Shown here: in pieces, positions 49,274 through 58,834 of the stretch
Layout of the letters: every line of letters begins with the position of its first letter
Numbering within the stretch: position 1 is the stretch's first letter
NCBI RefSeq assembly: GCF_008369165.1
Contig: NZ_VOBA01000001.1
Coordinates: 62,001-126,000, forward strand
Length of the DNA stretch: 64,000 nt
Source of the DNA: Dietzia sp. ANT_WB102
GTDB taxonomy: Bacteria > Actinomycetota > Actinomycetes > Mycobacteriales > Mycobacteriaceae
Direction of reading: 5' to 3'
Program-made: the position numbers and the translations under genes
The notes under the pieces: model-generated
What the model was told of the DNA's origin: nothing
Seen by the model: only the letters and a program-made list of their open reading frames with translations
Databases searched by the model: none

Positions 49274-49279
49274 TACGAT
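49274..49279 (+). promoter_or_regulatory. -10 element for leaderless transcription of the NRPS gene
   Basis: TACGAT lies six bases before the GTG at 49286, which places the transcription start at or next to the start codon. No ribosome-binding site is visible, consistent with a leaderless mRNA. Confidence 0.5.
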
Positions 49280-49285
49280 CCGCAG

Positions 49286-52200
49286 GTGGCCAGCATCCCT
49301 GAGCAGTATCTTCGCAGCTCACACGTGGCGGATCCCCGGACGCTCCTCGACGTGCTGGGCGCCGCGGCGAGCCGTCATCCTGACGCGCCGTGCATCGACG
49401 ACGGCGCCCGCGTCCTGACTTACGCCGAGGTCGCGCGCACGATCCACGCATCCGCGCGGTGGATGCACGAGCAGGGCGTCGGCGCCGGCGACCGGGTCGG
49501 TATCCACATGCCCTCGGGCTCCGCCGACCTGTACCTGGCGATCCTGAGCACCTTGGCGGCCGGCGCCGCGTATGTTCCCGTCGACGTGGACGACCCGGCC
49601 GAGCGCGCCGAGCTGGTGTTCGGGCAGGCACAGGTCGCGGCCGTCTACACCGCCGACGGCTTGCGTGTCACCGACCCCGACCGGCCCGCCGACCCCGCCC
49701 GCCACCGCGGCCCGACCGTGGACGACGACTGCTGGATCATCTTCACCTCCGGCACCACCGGCCTACCCAAGGGCGTGGCCGTCACGCACCGCAGCGCGGC
49801 CGCGTTCGTCGACGCCGAGTCGCGGATCTTCCTGCAGGACACGCCGCTGGGCCCCGGCGACCGCGTGTTGGCGGGGCTATCCGTAGCCTTCGACGCCTCC
49901 TGCGAGGAGATGTGGTTGGCCTGGGCACACGGGGCGTGCCTGGTGCCCGCGCCGCGCTCGGTCGTCAAGTCCGGGCTCGACCTGGGGCCGTGGCTGCTCG
50001 AACGCCGGATCACCGTCATCTCCACGGTGCCCACCCTCGCCTCGATGTGGCCCGATTCGATGCTCCGCGACATCCGGATGGTGATCCTCGGCGGCGAGGC
50101 CTGCCCGCCCGAGCTGGCCGAACGACTGGCCGGCGACGGGCGCGAAGTGTGGAACACCTACGGCCCCACCGAGGCGACCGTGGTGGCCTGTGCCGCCCGG
50201 CTGGACGGGCACGGCGAAGTGCCGATCGGGCTGCCGCTCGACGGGTGGGACCTCGCGGTGGTCGACCCCACCGGCCGGCCGGTGGGGTACGGGCAGTCCG
50301 GCGAGCTGGTGATCGGCGGCGTCGGGCTCGCGCGGTATCTGGACCCCGAGAAGGATGCCGAGAAGTACGGGCCGATGGAGTCCCTCGGCTGGGAACGCGC
50401 CTACCGGTCCGGGGACATCGTCCGGTTCGAGGCCGACGGCCTGTATTTCACCGGCCGGGTCGACGACCAGGTCAAGATCGGCGGGCGGCGGCTCGAGCTG
50501 GGCGAGGTCGACACCGCCGTATCTGCCCTGCCCGGGGTGAGCGCCGGTGCCGCGGCGGTGAGGAAGACCGACGCGGGCCAGCCGGTGCTCGTGGCCTACC
50601 TCGTGGCCGAGAACGCGAGCGGTTTCGACCTGGCGGGCGCGGCCGGACTTCTTCGCGAGCAACTGCCCGCCGGCGTGGTGCCGCGCCTGGCCCTGGTCGA
50701 CGAGCTGCCCACCCGCACCTCCGGCAAGGTCGACCGGGCCGCCCTCCCTTGGCCGCTGGCCCAGACGTCGGCGGCGGAGTCCGAACTCGACGGCACCGAG
50801 GCGTGGGTCGCCGAGCTGTGGTCCTCCGCACTCGGTGCCGACGTCTCCGGGGTAGACGAGGACTTCTTCGCCCTCGGCGGCGGGTCGCTGGCCGCCGCCC
50901 ACGTGGTGGTCCGGGTCCGCGAGCGCTTCCCCGCGGTCACCGTCGGCGATATCTACGACCGCTCGCGGCTGGGTGACTTCGCCGCCTACCTCGAAGAGCT
51001 GGAGCCCGAGGCCGAGGTCGAGCCGCGACACGTCCGGCCCGTCGGCCGCGGCGCGCAGCTCATGCAGGTACTCGCCACGATCCCGCTGCTCACCGTGACC
51101 GGCCTGCAGTGGCTCACCTGGCTCGGGATTGCGAGCACCCTCGCCGCCGGATCCGGGGTGGCGTGGGCGCGCCCCGTCTCGTGGTGGGTGCTCGGGATCC
51201 TGGCGGTGCTGCTTCTGCTGCCCGCCGGGCGGATGGTGGTGACCGCCGGACTGTGCCGGGCGCTCACCGCCGGCGTGATCCCGGGGACGTACCCGAGGGC
51301 GGGCGCGGTGCATGTGCGGATCTGGGCGGCCGAGCGACTGCTCGAGGTCTCCGGGGCGGCGAACCTGGAGGGTGCCGGCTGGCTCACCCCGTTCGCGCGG
51401 CTGCTGGGCGCGCGGATCGGTCACGGTGTCGACATGCACACCCTGCCGCCGGTCACCGGGCTGCTCCATGTGGGCGACGGGGCCTCGATCGAACCCGAGG
51501 TGGACCTGGCCGGGTACTGGGTCGACGGCGACCTCGTGCACGTGGGCGCGGTGGAGATCGGCGAGAACGCGGTGGTGGGCGCCAGGTCCACACTGCTGCC
51601 CGGCGCGGTGGTAGGCCGCGGGGCGCACGTCGAGATCGGATCCGCGGTGGTCGGCACCGTGAAGGCCGGTAAGCGCTACGCCGGATCGCCAGCGCTCAAA
51701 CGCGGTAAGCGGGGGTCTAGTTGGCCCGCCGAGCCCGCGCCCCACAGCCGGGGCTGGAGCCTGGTCTACCAGCTCTCTGCGGTGGCTCTGGGGGCGATGC
51801 CGCTGCTGGCCCTGTTCGCCGGTCTCGCGCTGGTCGCGTGGGGAGTCCGCGGCGCGGACAGCCCGGGCGGGCTGATTCTGCGCGCCGCGCTGTGGTCGAT
51901 CCCCGCCACACTCCTCGCGCTCGCACTCTTCGCCTCGGCCACCCTCGTGTCGATCCGGCTGCTGTCGATCGGGCTGACCCCGGGCTTCCACCCGGTCCAC
52001 TCGCGCATCGCCTGGCAGGCGTGGTGCAGCGAGCGGATCATGGACGCCTCCCGAAACTGGCTGTACCCGCTCTACGCCTCGATGCTCACCCCGGTCTGGC
52101 TGCGCATGCTGGGCGCGACGATCGGTAAGGACGTCGAGGCCTCGACCGTCCTGCTCATCCCCTCGCTCACCACGGTCCGCGACGGGGCGTTCCTCGCCGA

Positions 52201-53137
52201 CGACACCATGGTCGCACCGTACGAATTGGGCTCCGGGTGGATGCGTCTGGAGCACGCCCAGATCGGCAAGCGCGCCTTCCTCGGCAATTCCGGGATCGCC
52301 TCGGCAGGGCGTAAGGTGCCCGCACGGGGCCTGGTCGCAGTACTGTCTTCCGCCCCGCAGAAGGCCAAGAAGGGCACGTCGTGGCTGGGGTCGCCGCCCC
52401 GGAAACTGCACCGTGCGGTGTCCGACGACGACGACGATGTCCGCACCTATCAACCACCTCGCCGTCTCAAAGTGGCGCGAGGCGCGTGGGAGACCCTGCG
52501 GCTGGTTCCCACGTGGCTTTCCTTAGTCCTGCTGGTCAGCGTGCTCGTGGTGATGCAGGCAATCCATCTCAAGTGGGGCTTCGGTGTGGCGGCGCTGAGC
52601 TCGGGACTGGTTCTCGCCTCTGCGGGACTCGTTGCCCTCGTGGTGGCCGTGCTGGCCAAGTGGGTGCTCGTGGGTCGAATTCGCGCGGGAGAGCAGCCGC
52701 TGTGGTCCTCGTTCGTGTGGCGCAACGAGGTCGCCGACTCGTTCGTCGAGTTGCTGGCCGCGCCGTGGATGGCGCGCCCCGCTTCGGGAACCCCGGTGAT
52801 GAACGCGATGCTTCGCCTGCTGGGGTCGCGCATCGGCCGCGGCGTGTGGTGCGAGTCGTACTGGCTGCCCGAGGCCGATCTGGTCTCGCTGGGCGACGGC
52901 GCCACCGTCAACCGCGGTTGCGTGGTCCAGACACACCTGTTCCACGACCGCGTCATGCAGATCGACCGAGTGACGGTCGAGCCCGGCGCCACGCTGGGCT
53001 GCCACTGCGTGGCACTGCCGGCGTCGTCGATCGGTGACGGCTCCACGGTCGGTCCCGCCTCGCTCGTTATGCGCGGCGACCGCATCCCGCCCGGCACCCG
53101 CTGGCAGGGCAACCCGATCGCGCCCTGGCGCGGCTAG
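49286..53137 (+). CDS. Pls/PosA-type nonribosomal peptide (poly-amino-acid) synthetase
   Basis: A 1283-residue membrane-bound single-module NRPS. Order: adenylation domain (about residues 10-500; A3 FTSGTTGLPKGV near 153, A4 FDASCEEMW near 202, A5 NTYGPTEATV, A10 RTSGKVDRAAL), carrier domain with phosphopantetheine Ser534 in FALGGGSLAAA, then six hydrophobic segments alternating with three tandem hexapeptide-repeat (acyltransferase-like) domains to the end. This is the layout of epsilon-poly-L-lysine synthetase (Pls), which joins one amino acid into an isopeptide polymer without condensation domains. Aligning A4-A5 by eye on GrsA gives specificity residues D-A-E-S-I-G-T-V-V-K, close to the lysine code I recall for bacitracin synthetase. 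Monocistronic; the next gene is divergent in strand. Confidence 0.88.
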   Translation: MASIPEQYLRSSHVADPRTLLDVLGAAASRHPDAPCIDDGARVLTYAEVARTIHASARWMHEQGVGAGDRVGIHMPSGSADLYLAILSTLAAGAAYVPVDVDDPAERAELVFGQAQVAAVYTADGLRVTDPDRPADPARHRGPTVDDDCWIIFTSGTTGLPKGVAVTHRSAAAFVDAESRIFLQDTPLGPGDRVLAGLSVAFDASCEEMWLAWAHGACLVPAPRSVVKSGLDLGPWLLERRITVISTVPTLASMWPDSMLRDIRMVILGGEACPPELAERLAGDGREVWNTYGPTEATVVACAARLDGHGEVPIGLPLDGWDLAVVDPTGRPVGYGQSGELVIGGVGLARYLDPEKDAEKYGPMESLGWERAYRSGDIVRFEADGLYFTGRVDDQVKIGGRRLELGEVDTAVSALPGVSAGAAAVRKTDAGQPVLVAYLVAENASGFDLAGAAGLLREQLPAGVVPRLALVDELPTRTSGKVDRAALPWPLAQTSAAESELDGTEAWVAELWSSALGADVSGVDEDFFALGGGSLAAAHVVVRVRERFPAVTVGDIYDRSRLGDFAAYLEELEPEAEVEPRHVRPVGRGAQLMQVLATIPLLTVTGLQWLTWLGIASTLAAGSGVAWARPVSWWVLGILAVLLLLPAGRMVVTAGLCRALTAGVIPGTYPRAGAVHVRIWAAERLLEVSGAANLEGAGWLTPFARLLGARIGHGVDMHTLPPVTGLLHVGDGASIEPEVDLAGYWVDGDLVHVGAVEIGENAVVGARSTLLPGAVVGRGAHVEIGSAVVGTVKAGKRYAGSPALKRGKRGSSWPAEPAPHSRGWSLVYQLSAVALGAMPLLALFAGLALVAWGVRGADSPGGLILRAALWSIPATLLALALFASATLVSIRLLSIGLTPGFHPVHSRIAWQAWCSERIMDASRNWLYPLYASMLTPVWLRMLGATIGKDVEASTVLLIPSLTTVRDGAFLADDTMVAPYELGSGWMRLEHAQIGKRAFLGNSGIASAGRKVPARGLVAVLSSAPQKAKKGTSWLGSPPRKLHRAVSDDDDDVRTYQPPRRLKVARGAWETLRLVPTWLSLVLLVSVLVVMQAIHLKWGFGVAALSSGLVLASAGLVALVVAVLAKWVLVGRIRAGEQPLWSSFVWRNEVADSFVELLAAPWMARPASGTPVMNAMLRLLGSRIGRGVWCESYWLPEADLVSLGDGATVNRGCVVQTHLFHDRVMQIDRVTVEPGATLGCHCVALPASSIGDGSTVGPASLVMRGDRIPPGTRWQGNPIAPWRG

Positions 53138-53192: not shown

Positions 53193-53564
53193 TCAGGCGC
53201 CGGCGATCGCCCGCAGCGCGGCCAGGTGCGACTCGTATGCTCGACGCCCGCCGCGGGTGAGCGAGAGCCAGGTCCGGGGACGCTTGCCCACATAGCCTTT
53301 ACGGACCTTGACGTACCCGGCCTTCTCCAGCACCGCGGCCTGCTTGGACAGGGTCGAATCGGTCACCTCCACCGCGTCCCGGATTGTCGCGAACTCGGCG
53401 TCGTCGACTCCGGCGAGTGCGGCGACGATCGAAAACCGCACCGGGGCGTGGATCACCTCGTCGAGCTGGTGACGCGCATGCCTGTCCGAACGGCCGCCGG
53501 CCCCCGGGACCGAGCCCCCCGACGCGGTGGCGCCGCTCGTCGTCGTCGACTGTTCCTGACTCAT
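53193..53564 (-). CDS. Winged-helix transcriptional regulator (PF13601 type)
   Basis: A 123-residue DNA-binding protein: Ser/Thr/Gly-rich N-terminus, then a winged helix (APVRFSIVAALAGVDDAEF, VTDSTLSKQAAVLEKAGYV, GKRPRTWLSLTRGG). It matches the small MarR/ArsR-like regulators usually paired with a membrane-protein gene. ATG at 53564 overlaps the partner's stop as ATGA. Likely operator: the inverted repeat at 54072-54098. Confidence 0.85.
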   Translation of the reverse strand: MSQEQSTTTSGATASGGSVPGAGGRSDRHARHQLDEVIHAPVRFSIVAALAGVDDAEFATIRDAVEVTDSTLSKQAAVLEKAGYVKVRKGYVGKRPRTWLSLTRGGRRAYESHLAALRAIAGA

Positions 53565-54010
53565 CGCTCGCCACCGCGACGGACGATGATCGCGGCGGCC
53601 ACCAATCCGGGCAGCGCGACCACCAGCACGGCGAAGGCGAACCACCAGGGCGTGAGGCCGATCGTGGTGCGGATGACGTGCAGGCCCGTGACCGCAACGA
53701 GGACCATGACAGCGGATCCCGCGACGCCCCAGGTGTACGTCCGCCCCGACCCCCGGGGACTCGCGCTGATCGCTCGCCGCTGCCAGAAGACCGCCACGAA
53801 CAGGAGCGCCACGTACGGCACCATCGCCCAGTTCGAGTACATCGTCGCGATGGTTCCGACGCCCATCAGTACCGCGATGCCCGCGGCGAAGCCGGCGAAC
53901 ACCCAGACGTCGTGTCGGGAACTCACCGGTGGACGCCCCTCGGCCTCGGCGAGGAGGCGGGCGGCCTCTCGTTGATCGACCTCGCCTGTCGTGGAGTGCT
54001 GCGGGTCCAT
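53561..54010 (-). CDS. Four-helix membrane protein partnered with a regulator
   Basis: A 149-residue protein: polar N-terminus of about 35 residues, then four transmembrane helices in two pairs (WVFAGFAAGIAVLMGVGTIA; WAMVPYVALLFVAVF; TWGVAGSAVMVLVAVTGLHVI; WWFAFAVLVVALPGLVAAAIIV). No domain recognised. First gene of a two-gene operon with the winged-helix regulator (ATGA overlap), which suggests that the protein is its sensing or effector partner. ATG at 54010. Confidence 0.75.
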   Translation of the reverse strand: MDPQHSTTGEVDQREAARLLAEAEGRPPVSSRHDVWVFAGFAAGIAVLMGVGTIATMYSNWAMVPYVALLFVAVFWQRRAISASPRGSGRTYTWGVAGSAVMVLVAVTGLHVIRTTIGLTPWWFAFAVLVVALPGLVAAAIIVRRGGER

Positions 54011-54071: not shown

Positions 54072-54098
54072 AACTACTTGCCTAACTGGCAAGTAGTT
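54072..54098. promoter_or_regulatory. 27-bp inverted repeat operator of the regulator/membrane-protein operon
   Basis: Perfect 11-bp arms AACTACTTGCC and GGCAAGTAGTT around TAACT, 62 bases before the membrane-protein start. The right arm on the minus strand overlaps a TTGCCA-N18-TAGGCT promoter-like pair. Typical autoregulatory operator for the neighbouring regulator. Confidence 0.7.
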
Positions 54099-54166
54099 TA
54101 CAAACCTCGCATTTCCGCGCCGGCGACGGTGGTCACCACCTCAGGTCCTCTAGACTCGCGCAGGTC

Positions 54167-55570
54167 ATGGAATTGAAGGCAGTCACGTCAGACCTCGTCG
54201 CCAGGATCGCGGCCCCGCACACGCCGTCGGGCGCCGACCCGGTCGACCCCTATCTGCCCGGCACCGGCAACCACGGGTACCGCGTGACGCGATACGAGTT
54301 GGATCTCGACTACAAGATGAGCCCCAACAACCTCCGTGGGGAGGCGGTCATCACGGCCACCGCCACCGAGACGCTCGAGTCGATACAGCTCGACTTCTCC
54401 CCGCACCTCAAAGTGTCGAAGGTGGTGATCGACCGCGGCGGGGCCGTCCGCTACACCCGACCCCGCGGCAAACTCTCGATCACCCCCGCCGAACCGCTCG
54501 ACGCGGGATCGTCGTTCACGCTGACCATCCGCTACTCCGGCAACCCGAAGCCGATCCGCGGCGCGTGGGGGGAGGTCGGGTGGGAGGAACTGACCGACGG
54601 CGTCCTAGTAGCCAACCAGCCCAACGGCGCCTCCAGCTGGTTCCCCTGCGACGACCATCCCTCCTCCAAAGCCCCGTTCCGCATCCGGCTCACGACGGAC
54701 TCGCCCTACCGCGCCGTCGTCACCGGCACGCTGGTCGGCAAGAAGCGCAGCGGAAGCACGACCACCTGGGATTTCGACCTGCCGCACCCCACCTCCACCT
54801 ACCTTGTCACCATCAACCTCGGCCGCTATGAGCATCTCGAGTTGACCGGGGGGCCGGTGCCGTTCCACGCCTTCGTCCCCGCCGAACTCAAGCGCGGATT
54901 CAGGCAGGCCTTCGACCGTCAGCTCGAGATGCTCGCGGTCTTCTCCGACCTCTTCGGCCCGTACCCGTTCGACAGCTACAAGGTCGTGGTGACCGACGAC
55001 GAGCTCGAGATCCCGCTCGAGGCGATGGGCATGTCGACGTTCGGCCGCACCACGTGTGAGGCCGGGGACCGGCCGGACTCGGACGAGCGGCTCATCGCCC
55101 ACGAACTCGCCCACCAGTGGTTCGGCAACGCCGTGACCGTCGCCCAGTGGAAACACATCTGGCTGCACGAGGGGTTCGCCTGCTACGCAGAGTGGCTGTG
55201 GACCGAATTCTCCGGCGGCGCCGACGCCGCCAGCCACGCCCTGCGCTACTACTCCAAGCTGCAGAATTCCCCCCAGGACATCCTCTTGTCCGACCCCGGG
55301 CCGAAGAACATGTTCGACGACCGCGTTTACAAGCGTGGCGCCCTGACCCTGCATGCACTGCGCCTGACGATCGGCGACGACCGCTTCTTCGACCTCCTGC
55401 GCGCGTGGGTGGCCGAGCACACCGGAAAATCCGTCACCACCGACGACTTCCTCCACATGGCCGCCGACCACTCCCCCGTCGATCTGCGCCCGTTGTGGAA
55501 CGCCTGGTTGTTCTCCGAGCCCCTGCCGCCGACACTCGGTATGCCCGATGACGACACCGGCAGCCGCTGA
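54167..55570 (+). CDS. M1 family zinc metallopeptidase
   Basis: Aminopeptidase-type zinc protease, 467 residues, cytosolic. Zinc motif HELAHQWFG with the second Glu in WLHEGFACYAEWLW 18 residues on. It has the M1 beta-sandwich N-domain but no large C-terminal helical domain, and the GAMEN exopeptidase motif is replaced by PLEAMGMST, as in the short M1 subgroup. -10-like TAGACT 10 bases before the ATG suggests a near-leaderless transcript. Confidence 0.9.
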   Translation: MELKAVTSDLVARIAAPHTPSGADPVDPYLPGTGNHGYRVTRYELDLDYKMSPNNLRGEAVITATATETLESIQLDFSPHLKVSKVVIDRGGAVRYTRPRGKLSITPAEPLDAGSSFTLTIRYSGNPKPIRGAWGEVGWEELTDGVLVANQPNGASSWFPCDDHPSSKAPFRIRLTTDSPYRAVVTGTLVGKKRSGSTTTWDFDLPHPTSTYLVTINLGRYEHLELTGGPVPFHAFVPAELKRGFRQAFDRQLEMLAVFSDLFGPYPFDSYKVVVTDDELEIPLEAMGMSTFGRTTCEAGDRPDSDERLIAHELAHQWFGNAVTVAQWKHIWLHEGFACYAEWLWTEFSGGADAASHALRYYSKLQNSPQDILLSDPGPKNMFDDRVYKRGALTLHALRLTIGDDRFFDLLRAWVAEHTGKSVTTDDFLHMAADHSPVDLRPLWNAWLFSEPLPPTLGMPDDDTGSR

Positions 55571-56846
55571 GTCCGCCCCGCGCCCAGCGCCCGCTCCCGC
55601 CGGCGCGGGAGGGCTGCGCGCACTGACCCTGGCGACGGTGTTCGCCGCCGCCTCCGGATACCTCATCATGGTCATCGTGGGTCGCTCTCTGGGCCCGGCC
55701 GACTACCGACTCTTTGCCTCCTACTGGGGGGCGTTCTTCGCCCTCGGCGGCGTGGCAAACGGTCTCATGCAGGAGACAACGCGGGCCGTCCGTGCGGCCC
55801 GTGGCGGTCAGTCTCCGGCACCGTTCGGGCCGCGGGTGCGACTGCTGCCGGCCGGATTGATGCTCGGGCTCGGGCTGGCCGCCGCCGTACTGCTGAGCTG
55901 GCCCGCCTGGCCCACCCTGGGGCTGGCTACGCACTCCGGTGCCGGGGTGGCGATCATGGCCGTGGGCATCCTCGGGTTCGCGCTGCAGGCCGCCACCGCC
56001 GGTGCGCTGTCGGGCACCGAACGATGGGGGATGTACGCGGTCCTCCTCACCGTGGACGCGACGCTGCGGCTCGCTGTCGCGGGCGTCGCCTGGTGGCTCG
56101 GCGACGCCGGGCTGGGATTCGCCGTCGCCACCGTCGCGGGAACGCTCACGTGGGCGCTGCTCGTCGCGTTCTCCGCCGCGACCCGGGCCGCTCTCCGGTC
56201 GGCCCTCGATGTCGGCCGCAGCGCGTTCTGGCGCCATACGGGGTCGGCGATGCTCGCCTCCGCGGGGACGTCCGCCCTAGTCGTGGGGTTCCCGGTGTTC
56301 GTCACCGCCACCGCCCGGGAGTCCGACTCCGCCCCCCTGGTCGGCGCCGTGATCCTCGCCATCACTCTCACCCGGGCTCCGCTTCTGGTCCCGCTCACGA
56401 GTTTCCAGAGCGCGATCATCGTGTATTTCGTCGAACGCCGCGCTCGTGGCGTCCGCGCTCTGGCGGCACCCCTGGGGCTCGTCACGGCCGTCGGTGTCGC
56501 GGGCGCCGGCGCCGCATGGCTGATCGGCCCCTGGCTGATCGGCCTTCTGTTCGAGGACGAGTTCGTCCTCCCCGGACCAGTCCTGGCGGCGCTCACCGCC
56601 GCGTCCTTGGGGACGGCCGCGCTGATGATCACCGGCAACGCTGCACTCGCTTTTGGCCATCACCTGCTCTACAACGCCGGGTGGTGGGTCGCGGTCGTCG
56701 CTGCCGCGGTCCTCCTCCTCGCCCTGCCCGGCACCGTGGATGCCCGCTCGGCGATCGCGCTGCTCGCCGGACCCGGATTCGGGGTGGCGCTACACCTGCT
56801 CGGAATTGCGCGTTCCGGGCGAGCGGAAGGCCACCCCGCGCCGTGA
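55548..56846 (+). CDS. Flippase-like (MOP superfamily) membrane protein
   Basis: A 432-residue protein with about 12 predicted helices, starting TLATVFAAASGYLIMVIVGRSLGPADY; related to lipid-linked polysaccharide flippases. Its ATG lies inside the end of the M1 peptidase gene, and its stop overlaps the aftA start (GTGA). Position and length match Rv3630 of M. tuberculosis. A role in moving lipid-linked sugar for the cell wall is inferred from the neighbours. Confidence 0.75.
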   Translation: MTTPAAAESAPRPAPAPAGAGGLRALTLATVFAAASGYLIMVIVGRSLGPADYRLFASYWGAFFALGGVANGLMQETTRAVRAARGGQSPAPFGPRVRLLPAGLMLGLGLAAAVLLSWPAWPTLGLATHSGAGVAIMAVGILGFALQAATAGALSGTERWGMYAVLLTVDATLRLAVAGVAWWLGDAGLGFAVATVAGTLTWALLVAFSAATRAALRSALDVGRSAFWRHTGSAMLASAGTSALVVGFPVFVTATARESDSAPLVGAVILAITLTRAPLLVPLTSFQSAIIVYFVERRARGVRALAAPLGLVTAVGVAGAGAAWLIGPWLIGLLFEDEFVLPGPVLAALTAASLGTAALMITGNAALAFGHHLLYNAGWWVAVVAAAVLLLALPGTVDARSAIALLAGPGFGVALHLLGIARSGRAEGHPAP

Positions 56847-58834
56847 CCGACGCCCGCGTCCTCGCCCGCCGTGCCCAGATCCTCGCTCGGCCCGCCGCCG
56901 AACTGCTCGCCGCGCTGCTGGTGGCGGCCGTCGTCGGGACCGTCACGTTCGCCGCGGTCGACGCCCTTCCGTTCGTCGAACCCAGCTGGTTGCCCGAGAC
57001 CTTCGGCGGGACCCTGGCCGCGGCCGTGGTCATCCTTGCCGGGTGGCTGCTCTTGCGCCGGTCCGCGAGCATGCGGACCCTGTGGCTGCTCGGAACCGCC
57101 GGCCCAGCCTTCCTGGCGTCGTCCCATCTCGGGCTCCTGCTGGGCGGGACGCCGCACTACCTGTACGGCCTGGGCGGCGACCAACTCAATCGCGTCGCCT
57201 ACGTCACCCGCTTCGCCGACTCCCCCGCCCTGGCAGATCCGTTCTACGCGGACGCCGCACCCTTCTACCCACCGCAGTGGTTCTGGGTGGGAGGGCGTCT
57301 GGCCGCGCTGTCCGGCGTCGACGGCTGGGAGTTCTACAAGCCCTACGCCATCGTCACGATGGGCATCGCGGGCGCGATCGCGTTCGTCGCCTGGCGGTGG
57401 CTCGTCCCGGCGCGACTTGCGGTCCTGTTCGGCCTGGTCACCGCCATCGTCGGCGTGCACACCAACGCCTACGAGCCGTACTCGTGGATCCTCATCTGTC
57501 TGCTTCCGCAGGTCGTCGTGGCGACGTTCCTGCTCTGCGCACGCGTCACCGCAGGAGCTGGATCCCTGACGCACCGCAGGCCCACGTGGCCACTCGTCGT
57601 GACGATCGGCGTGTACCTCGGCTGGGCCGCGCTCGGCTACACCCTCATCGCGGGTTTCGCGGCGCTGCTGGTGGGGCTCGTCGTCGTCATCCACGTCTGG
57701 CGGTTCCGCACCGACCGCGCCGCGGTCCGTGCTCTGCTCGCCCGACTGGCCGCGATGGCCGGGATCTCTGCGGCGATCGCCCTGCTGTTCTGGCACCGGT
57801 ACCTGTTCGCGGTGCTCGGCGGCGCGGAGACCGAGACCTCCGTGGCCAACGACTTCGCGCCCGAGATCGCGTCCCGGTGGCCGCTGCCGATGTTCGAGGT
57901 GTCCGCGTCAGGGCTGCTGTGCCTGATCGGTGTGGTGTGGATCGTGGTCACCGTGTGGCCCGCCGGGATCGGCCGGGCCGCCGACCGGGCGACGACGGCG
58001 CTGCGCACACGAATGGGTACGGAAGACGACGCGCAGACCACCCGCTCCGGTGACAGCGCCCTCCCGACTGCGGACCGCAGGCGCATCCTGGCGCAGGCAC
58101 TGGGACTGGTGGTGCTGGCCGTCCTCGGGTGGTACGTGCTCTCCGGCGTGCGTGCGGTCACCGGGAGCACGCTGCTGCCGTTCCGGATGATCCCGATCAT
58201 CACGCTGGCTCTCTCGGTGGCCGGAGCCGTGGGCGCGGTGGCTCTGGCCCGGTGGGCCGTGGATACGTCACCTGACCAGTCCCGCGGCCGGGTGACCGCA
58301 GCGGCTGTGCTGGTCGCCGGGCTCGCAGCGGTACAGATGGTGCAACACGTCTCCGAGGAGGACACGCACTTCGCCGCCGCCGCCAGACAGACTCCTGCCG
58401 TACCCCACCGTGTCCTCGATGCGATCGACGACATGACCGGCGACCGGGAGCCTTCCGAACTGGTGGTGCTGACCGCAGACCCGACCCTGTACGTCTACAG
58501 GCCGTACTTCACCTTCCAGGGCCCTGCGCAGGCCTACGCGACACCGGCGGCCCGGTACGGCGAGCGCCTCGACGAGATCCGCCAGTGGGCGGACACCACG
58601 ACCCCCGAGGAACTGAACGCAGCACTGGAGTCGAGCGCATTCCGCAGTCCCGACGTGCTCGTACTCACCCGGGAAGGGTCCCGCCGGTGGATTTTCCCCG
58701 CGGTGGTCAATGAGATGCCGCGCATCAAGAACAACTCGCGGGAGGAGATCGTCTTCCGACCGCGGCAATTCGATGACCCCGCACTGTTCGACGTTCGCCG
58801 GGTCGGGTCGCAGATGGTGATCGTCCGCCGGTGA
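56843..58834 (+). CDS. aftA: Galactan 5-O-arabinofuranosyltransferase (AftA, GT85)
   Basis: Adds the first arabinofuranose to the galactan chain of arabinogalactan using decaprenyl-phosphoryl-arabinose, 663 residues. Membrane part of about 11-13 helices (first 450 residues) with the GGDQLNRVAYVTRFADSPAL and PFYPPQWFW stretches characteristic of AftA, then a periplasmic-facing C-domain (VVLTADPTLYVYRPYFTFQG...). GTG at 56843 overlaps the flippase stop; a longer frame upstream is shadow. In M. tuberculosis aftA is in the emb region, so its place beside the Rv3630-like gene is a local difference. Confidence 0.87.
   Translation: MTDARVLARRAQILARPAAELLAALLVAAVVGTVTFAAVDALPFVEPSWLPETFGGTLAAAVVILAGWLLLRRSASMRTLWLLGTAGPAFLASSHLGLLLGGTPHYLYGLGGDQLNRVAYVTRFADSPALADPFYADAAPFYPPQWFWVGGRLAALSGVDGWEFYKPYAIVTMGIAGAIAFVAWRWLVPARLAVLFGLVTAIVGVHTNAYEPYSWILICLLPQVVVATFLLCARVTAGAGSLTHRRPTWPLVVTIGVYLGWAALGYTLIAGFAALLVGLVVVIHVWRFRTDRAAVRALLARLAAMAGISAAIALLFWHRYLFAVLGGAETETSVANDFAPEIASRWPLPMFEVSASGLLCLIGVVWIVVTVWPAGIGRAADRATTALRTRMGTEDDAQTTRSGDSALPTADRRRILAQALGLVVLAVLGWYVLSGVRAVTGSTLLPFRMIPIITLALSVAGAVGAVALARWAVDTSPDQSRGRVTAAAVLVAGLAAVQMVQHVSEEDTHFAAAARQTPAVPHRVLDAIDDMTGDREPSELVVLTADPTLYVYRPYFTFQGPAQAYATPAARYGERLDEIRQWADTTTPEELNAALESSAFRSPDVLVLTREGSRRWIFPAVVNEMPRIKNNSREEIVFRPRQFDDPALFDVRRVGSQMVIVRR

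Follow-up and report, generated by a model that had tools for sequence, protein, structure and literature searches.

The window analysed here is the whole stretch of 64,000 nucleotides taken from Dietzia sp. ANT_WB102, in which a gene of the Pls/PosA family (pls) and a gene for an M1-family metallopeptidase lie on the plus strand, with a minus-strand insert of two genes between them. The features of the locus are as follows.

49274..49279, plus strand: putative -10 hexamer TACGAT, 12 bases 5′ of the pls GTG (conserved TANNNT)
49286..53137, plus strand: pls, a Pls/PosA-family gene predicted to encode an epsilon-poly-L-lysine synthetase of 1283 aa (GTG-start ORF, TIGR02353, PDB 7WEW)
49364..50761, plus strand: adenylation (A) domain, about residues 27-492, with the code DAESIGTVVK (Pfam, PDB match, alignment)
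50804..50992, plus strand: thiolation (T) domain, residues 507-569, with phosphopantetheine serine S534 in LGGGSLAA (Pfam, alignment)
51062..53119, plus strand: C-terminal polymerising part, residues 593-1278 (TIGR02353 profile 2-695/695)
53193..53564, minus strand: winged-helix (HTH_34) regulator of the insert, about 123 aa (PF13601, 96 bits)
53561..54010, minus strand: small membrane protein of the insert, about 149 aa; overlaps the start of the regulator (comparison of loci)
54072..54098, unstranded: palindrome with 11-bp arms, operator-like (sequence scan)
54151..54156, plus strand: TAGACT, putative -10 hexamer for the peptidase gene, 16 bases 5′ of its ATG (conserved TANNNT)
54167..55570, plus strand: metallopeptidase of the M1 family (467 aa), a likely partner of pls of the PldII type (PF01433, PF17900, adjacency, HELAH)

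The pls frame starts with GTG and is open for 1283 codons. Pfam places AMP-binding at residues 27-350 and PP-binding at residues 507-569 and gives only Hexapep besides, condensation and thioesterase domains being absent, and the position of S534 is a serine in all alignment rows that cover it. The TIGR02353 profile of the family scores 713.7 bits against a cut-off of 423.1, residues 593-1278 corresponding to profile positions 2-695 of 695, and it exceeds the cut-off once in the host's own genome. In this C-terminal part, hydrophobic segments are interspersed with hexapeptide-repeat-like stretches; set against the six transmembrane segments in three pairs looked for in a Pls, five segments have a hydropathy above 1.5 and the first segment has a value of 1.44. 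When the C-terminal part alone was searched against the PDB, only weak hexapeptide-transferase-like matches were obtained (best E 0.00099). The complete Pls layout proposed in a preliminary description of this DNA, namely A, T and a full-length TIGR02353 C-terminal part at 49286-53137 (+), is therefore borne out. Comparison with four Dietzia relatives places pls under purifying selection (pN/pS 0.17-0.21).

The top PDB match of the pls protein is 7WEW, the A domain of the S. albulus epsilon-poly-L-lysine synthase (E 8.8e-189), and 302 of the 478 aligned A-domain residues (63%) are identical between the two. The code DAESIGTVVK is read at residues 203, 204, 207, 246, 267, 269, 291, 299, 300 and 481, which we take to be equivalent to the GrsA code positions on the basis of motif anchors. 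An alignment of 113 rows was built from 110 relative loci together with L001 (the locus of the window itself), the query and 7WEW, with some genomes entering twice under two ids (e.g. L006 and L095). All 111 rows that cover every code position, the query and 7WEW included, carry DAESIGTVVK, and the other two (L107 and L115) are ended by contig edges. The code, which had been read by eye and placed near that of lysine, is thus confirmed by alignment and is in fact the Pls code itself, identical to that of 7WEW. As a control set, 12 further places of the family were picked, 11 from a sample of 394 genomes of the class and one from the search for relatives. Of these, nine have DFE[CY]-type codes, L183 carries the Pls code, and the stretches of the remaining two contain no A domain. 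A tree of 41 A domains, two of them from one genome, has a 100/100 branch that parts the query, 7WEW and 30 others from the nine DFE-type rows; the flagged long branches L175, L176 and L183 were kept in this tree, and joins of such branches may be false.

Lysine is therefore the best substrate prediction for the A domain of pls. It may be noted that NRPS codes are imperfect predictors of substrate, which leaves room for the alternative that another basic amino acid (ornithine, diaminobutyrate, diaminopropionate or beta-lysine) is activated and a different isopeptide is made. Several polymers are made by the Pls/PosA family according to PMC10522769, which also describes PosA of Acinetobacter baumannii, a delta-poly-L-ornithine synthetase that shares family and layout with our protein but is specific for ornithine. 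PDB chain 8G95 matches with E 1.5e-50 against 8.8e-189 for 7WEW, though 8G95 is a shorter construct and the two values are not strictly comparable. We consider this alternative very improbable, as the code is the same as that of S. albulus Pls and the nine members whose codes differ share 35-36% A-domain identity with the query and group in a clade of their own. The poly-lysine prediction of the preliminary description is well supported by the 7WEW-identical code, the A-domain identity and the shared clade.

That description also held that no degradation enzyme lies next to pls, which is wrong and is rejected here. The PF01433/PF17900 gene at 54167-55570 (+), overlooked in the earlier reading and now added, is the next plus-strand gene after pls, about 1 kb off and behind the insert, and in 78 of 80 loci (the best 80 of at least 582) tblastn finds a peptidase match 3′ of pls and in the same orientation. 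The two loci without a match, L007 (209 bases of 3′ flank) and L063 (no 3′ flank), are at contig ends. A stricter neighbour count, based on ORFs and 60% of length, gave the peptidase in 54 of the 80 loci as against 78 by tblastn. In 72 of the 78 cases, all but L006, L025, L026, L029, L031 and L033, the match starts within 125 bases past the end of pls. In many of the loci the earliest possible start of the peptidase, starts being taken mechanically, touches or overlaps the pls end. The HELAH zinc motif of the window's peptidase begins at residue 312, and HEXXH is present in 79 of 79 aligned peptidase rows (86 loci were sought and 8 were skipped before the count). This gene is also under purifying selection, with pN/pS of 0.20-0.23 against four relatives. 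An M1 peptidase likewise lies 3′ of pls in five picked loci of genus g57, with 41.8-48.7% identity to the window's. A point against the PldII-type assignment is that in G446, whose A domain is the closest to 7WEW among the 394 sampled genomes (79%), the M1-family peptidase behind pls is only 41.8% identical to ours.

Among 61 relatives, the TIGR02353 family is found above cut-off in 37 (18 of 23 within the genus). Peptidase matches with 48% identity or more, a line drawn after the results were seen, are present in 36 of these 37 and in none of the other 24; the sole pls-bearing miss, G020, stops at a contig edge, and ten of the 24 pls-lacking relatives have weaker matches of 29-41% identity. 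These figures bear on the possibility that an ordinary M1 aminopeptidase sits beside pls by chance. In favour of it is G024 (L161), a relative of 2.3 Mb in which pls has no peptidase match within the 15 kb examined and the homologue of the peptidase, adjoining the flippase-like gene, is found about 610 kb from pls. The adjacency in 78 of the 80 best loci, the co-occurrence of 36/37 versus 0/24, and the joint absence of pls and peptidase from two Dietzia genomes speak against it, and we regard a chance neighbour as quite unlikely. The window's peptidase is likely a PldII-type partner of pls, being likened to S. albulus PldII by position and description.

S. albulus pldII is described in PMC9223678 as the main epsilon-poly-lysine-degrading enzyme, an aminopeptidase whose gene is translationally coupled to pls. 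The S. albulus pair and ours are alike in the A-T-C-terminal layout, the ten-residue code and the placing of a peptidase gene beside pls, and unlike in that the window's pair is split by the insert and has separate promoter-like hexamers. Also, no signal peptide was seen by eye in the window's peptidase, whereas S. albulus PldII is reported to lie outside the membrane. Direct support for the proposed system comes from domain content, code identity, clade, gene pairing and purifying selection, and we hold with good confidence that pls encodes a Pls-type synthetase of epsilon-poly-L-lysine and has a PldII-type peptidase as its partner.

The insert of regulator and membrane protein that parts pls from the peptidase is present in some Dietzia genomes and absent from others. 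The HTH_34 regulator is found behind pls in 9 of 16 distinct genomes of the genus, the window included, and has no match in 7; these come from 17 rows, L009 and L170 being one genome, and L007 is counted as insert-bearing on a partial regulator at a contig end. The inserted membrane protein gave nothing above cut-off in Pfam. The palindrome is found in its exact form only in the window, and ACTACTT/AAGTAGT-like variants of it occur in six other insert-bearing loci (L006, L165, L166, L168, L169 and L171) but not in L164. Of 15 distinct genomes from the genus, 14 have a TANNNT hexamer beginning 12 bases ahead of the pls GTG (in L159 it begins 13 ahead; L173 was excluded because its match stops short of the gene start), and 14 of 15 have another beginning 16 bases ahead of the peptidase start, L159 again being the exception. 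As related genomes are not independent, these counts are to be read as conservation and not as working promoters. The pls transcript had been called probably leaderless; the conserved position of the hexamer 12 bases before the GTG lends this some support. A generic sigma-70 promoter and terminator scan found nothing. The peptidase gene having its own conserved hexamer, it is plausible that pls is monocistronic in this genome, as had been proposed.

Five members of the genus are without pls, and the best-assembled two (G004 and G016) were examined. In both, the tilS, PBP4, enoyl-CoA hydratase, SDR and flippase-like genes follow in order, and no match to pls or to the peptidase was obtained in these loci. 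The SDR and flippase-like matches are separated by 123 and 108 bases there, and the gaps at L187 and L188, of 108 and 123 bases, are too short to hold the regulator. In the window itself, envelope-type neighbours are present in the form of PBP4-type and AftA-type genes. The region 55548-58834 encodes a polytopic flippase-like protein, without a match in Pfam, followed by an AftA-type arabinofuranosyltransferase. The flippase-like gene (55548-56846), which lies behind the peptidase in 22 of the 80 best relative loci (of at least 582), was rejected as a member of the unit, as it is present in pls-lacking genomes and is kept where pls and peptidase are absent.

By analogy with characterised relatives, the A domain would adenylate L-lysine and load it on the thiolation domain, and the membrane-bound C-terminal part would link the lysines at the epsilon-amino group to give a short isopeptide of cationic character. 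Release of the polymer outside the cell is probable, and the M1 metallopeptidase may trim or degrade it for self-protection or length control; lysine activation, isopeptide linkage, export and the substrate of the peptidase are what we infer beyond the direct evidence. Epsilon-poly-lysine is secreted by S. albulus, which speaks against a rival reading whereby the polymer would be retained by the cell and serve the envelope, or the gene would be mostly silent, rather than giving a secreted antimicrobial. The presence of PBP4-type and AftA-type genes nearby and the spread of the family over 37 of the 61 relatives favour this rival, but in the two pls-lacking Dietzia genomes tilS and PBP4 remain grouped with the flippase-like gene, so these envelope neighbours are not tied to pls, and the flippase-like gene is found in other pls-lacking genomes too. 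A silent gene is possible given that native C. variabile has no epsilon-poly-lysine detectable in culture and that C. glutamicum carrying the C. variabile pls gave the protein but no epsilon-poly-lysine, as reported in PMC8117764. Overall, we find retention or silence rather unlikely, though it is the rival to which we give most weight. A secreted polymer is still the preferred reading. A further, speculative and improbable idea is that in part of Dietzia the insert, with its operator-like palindrome next to the putative promoter of the peptidase, puts polymer breakdown under a separate membrane-sensed signal, whereby the polymer would accrue only with the peptidase off and would maybe serve the mycolate envelope.

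The scan for relatives gave at least 582 related stretches, the best 80 of which are all actinobacterial, with best-segment identities of 85-87% in Dietzia and 56-65% in others. In the 394 genomes sampled from the class, the TIGR02353 family is above cut-off in 105 and a Pls-like A domain (E 1e-120 or better) is present in 95. The view that a non-streptomycete source would be notable fails in the light of this distribution (37 of the 61 relatives) and of earlier records. Epsilon-poly-L-lysine formation by the Pls of C. variabile DSM 44702, like our host a non-filamentous actinobacterium, was shown in S. coelicolor (PMC8117764); it is of a different genus, and we compared it by its published description. 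A Pls homologue of Nocardia was already noted in 2014 (PMC4035055), and this cluster class is reported from 218 of 263 Nocardia genomes (PMC12153302). For Dietzia, the excerpts of PMC12113857, PMC13385363 and PMC9860996 report no epsilon-poly-L-lysine or NAPAA product, the last mentioning only a type I PKS cluster for its Dietzia strain; pls terms sought in PMC7775120 gave nothing relevant.

The pair of pls and peptidase is thus common among relatives and not a new system, and Pls and the M1 peptidase co-occur in many mycolate-bearing actinobacteria. If Dietzia expresses pls, it could add to the possible sources of a food preservative and be a small-genome host for asking what use the polymer has to its maker, the biological meaning of such polymers being called unclear in PMC9606270. 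We also observed, at G239:C1:7438323-7440425, G419:C1:8354329-8356431 and in similar rows, open frames of only about 820-1110 aa that match the Pls C-terminal family over its full length; as these frames are short for A and T, they are possibly synthetases with a separate A domain.
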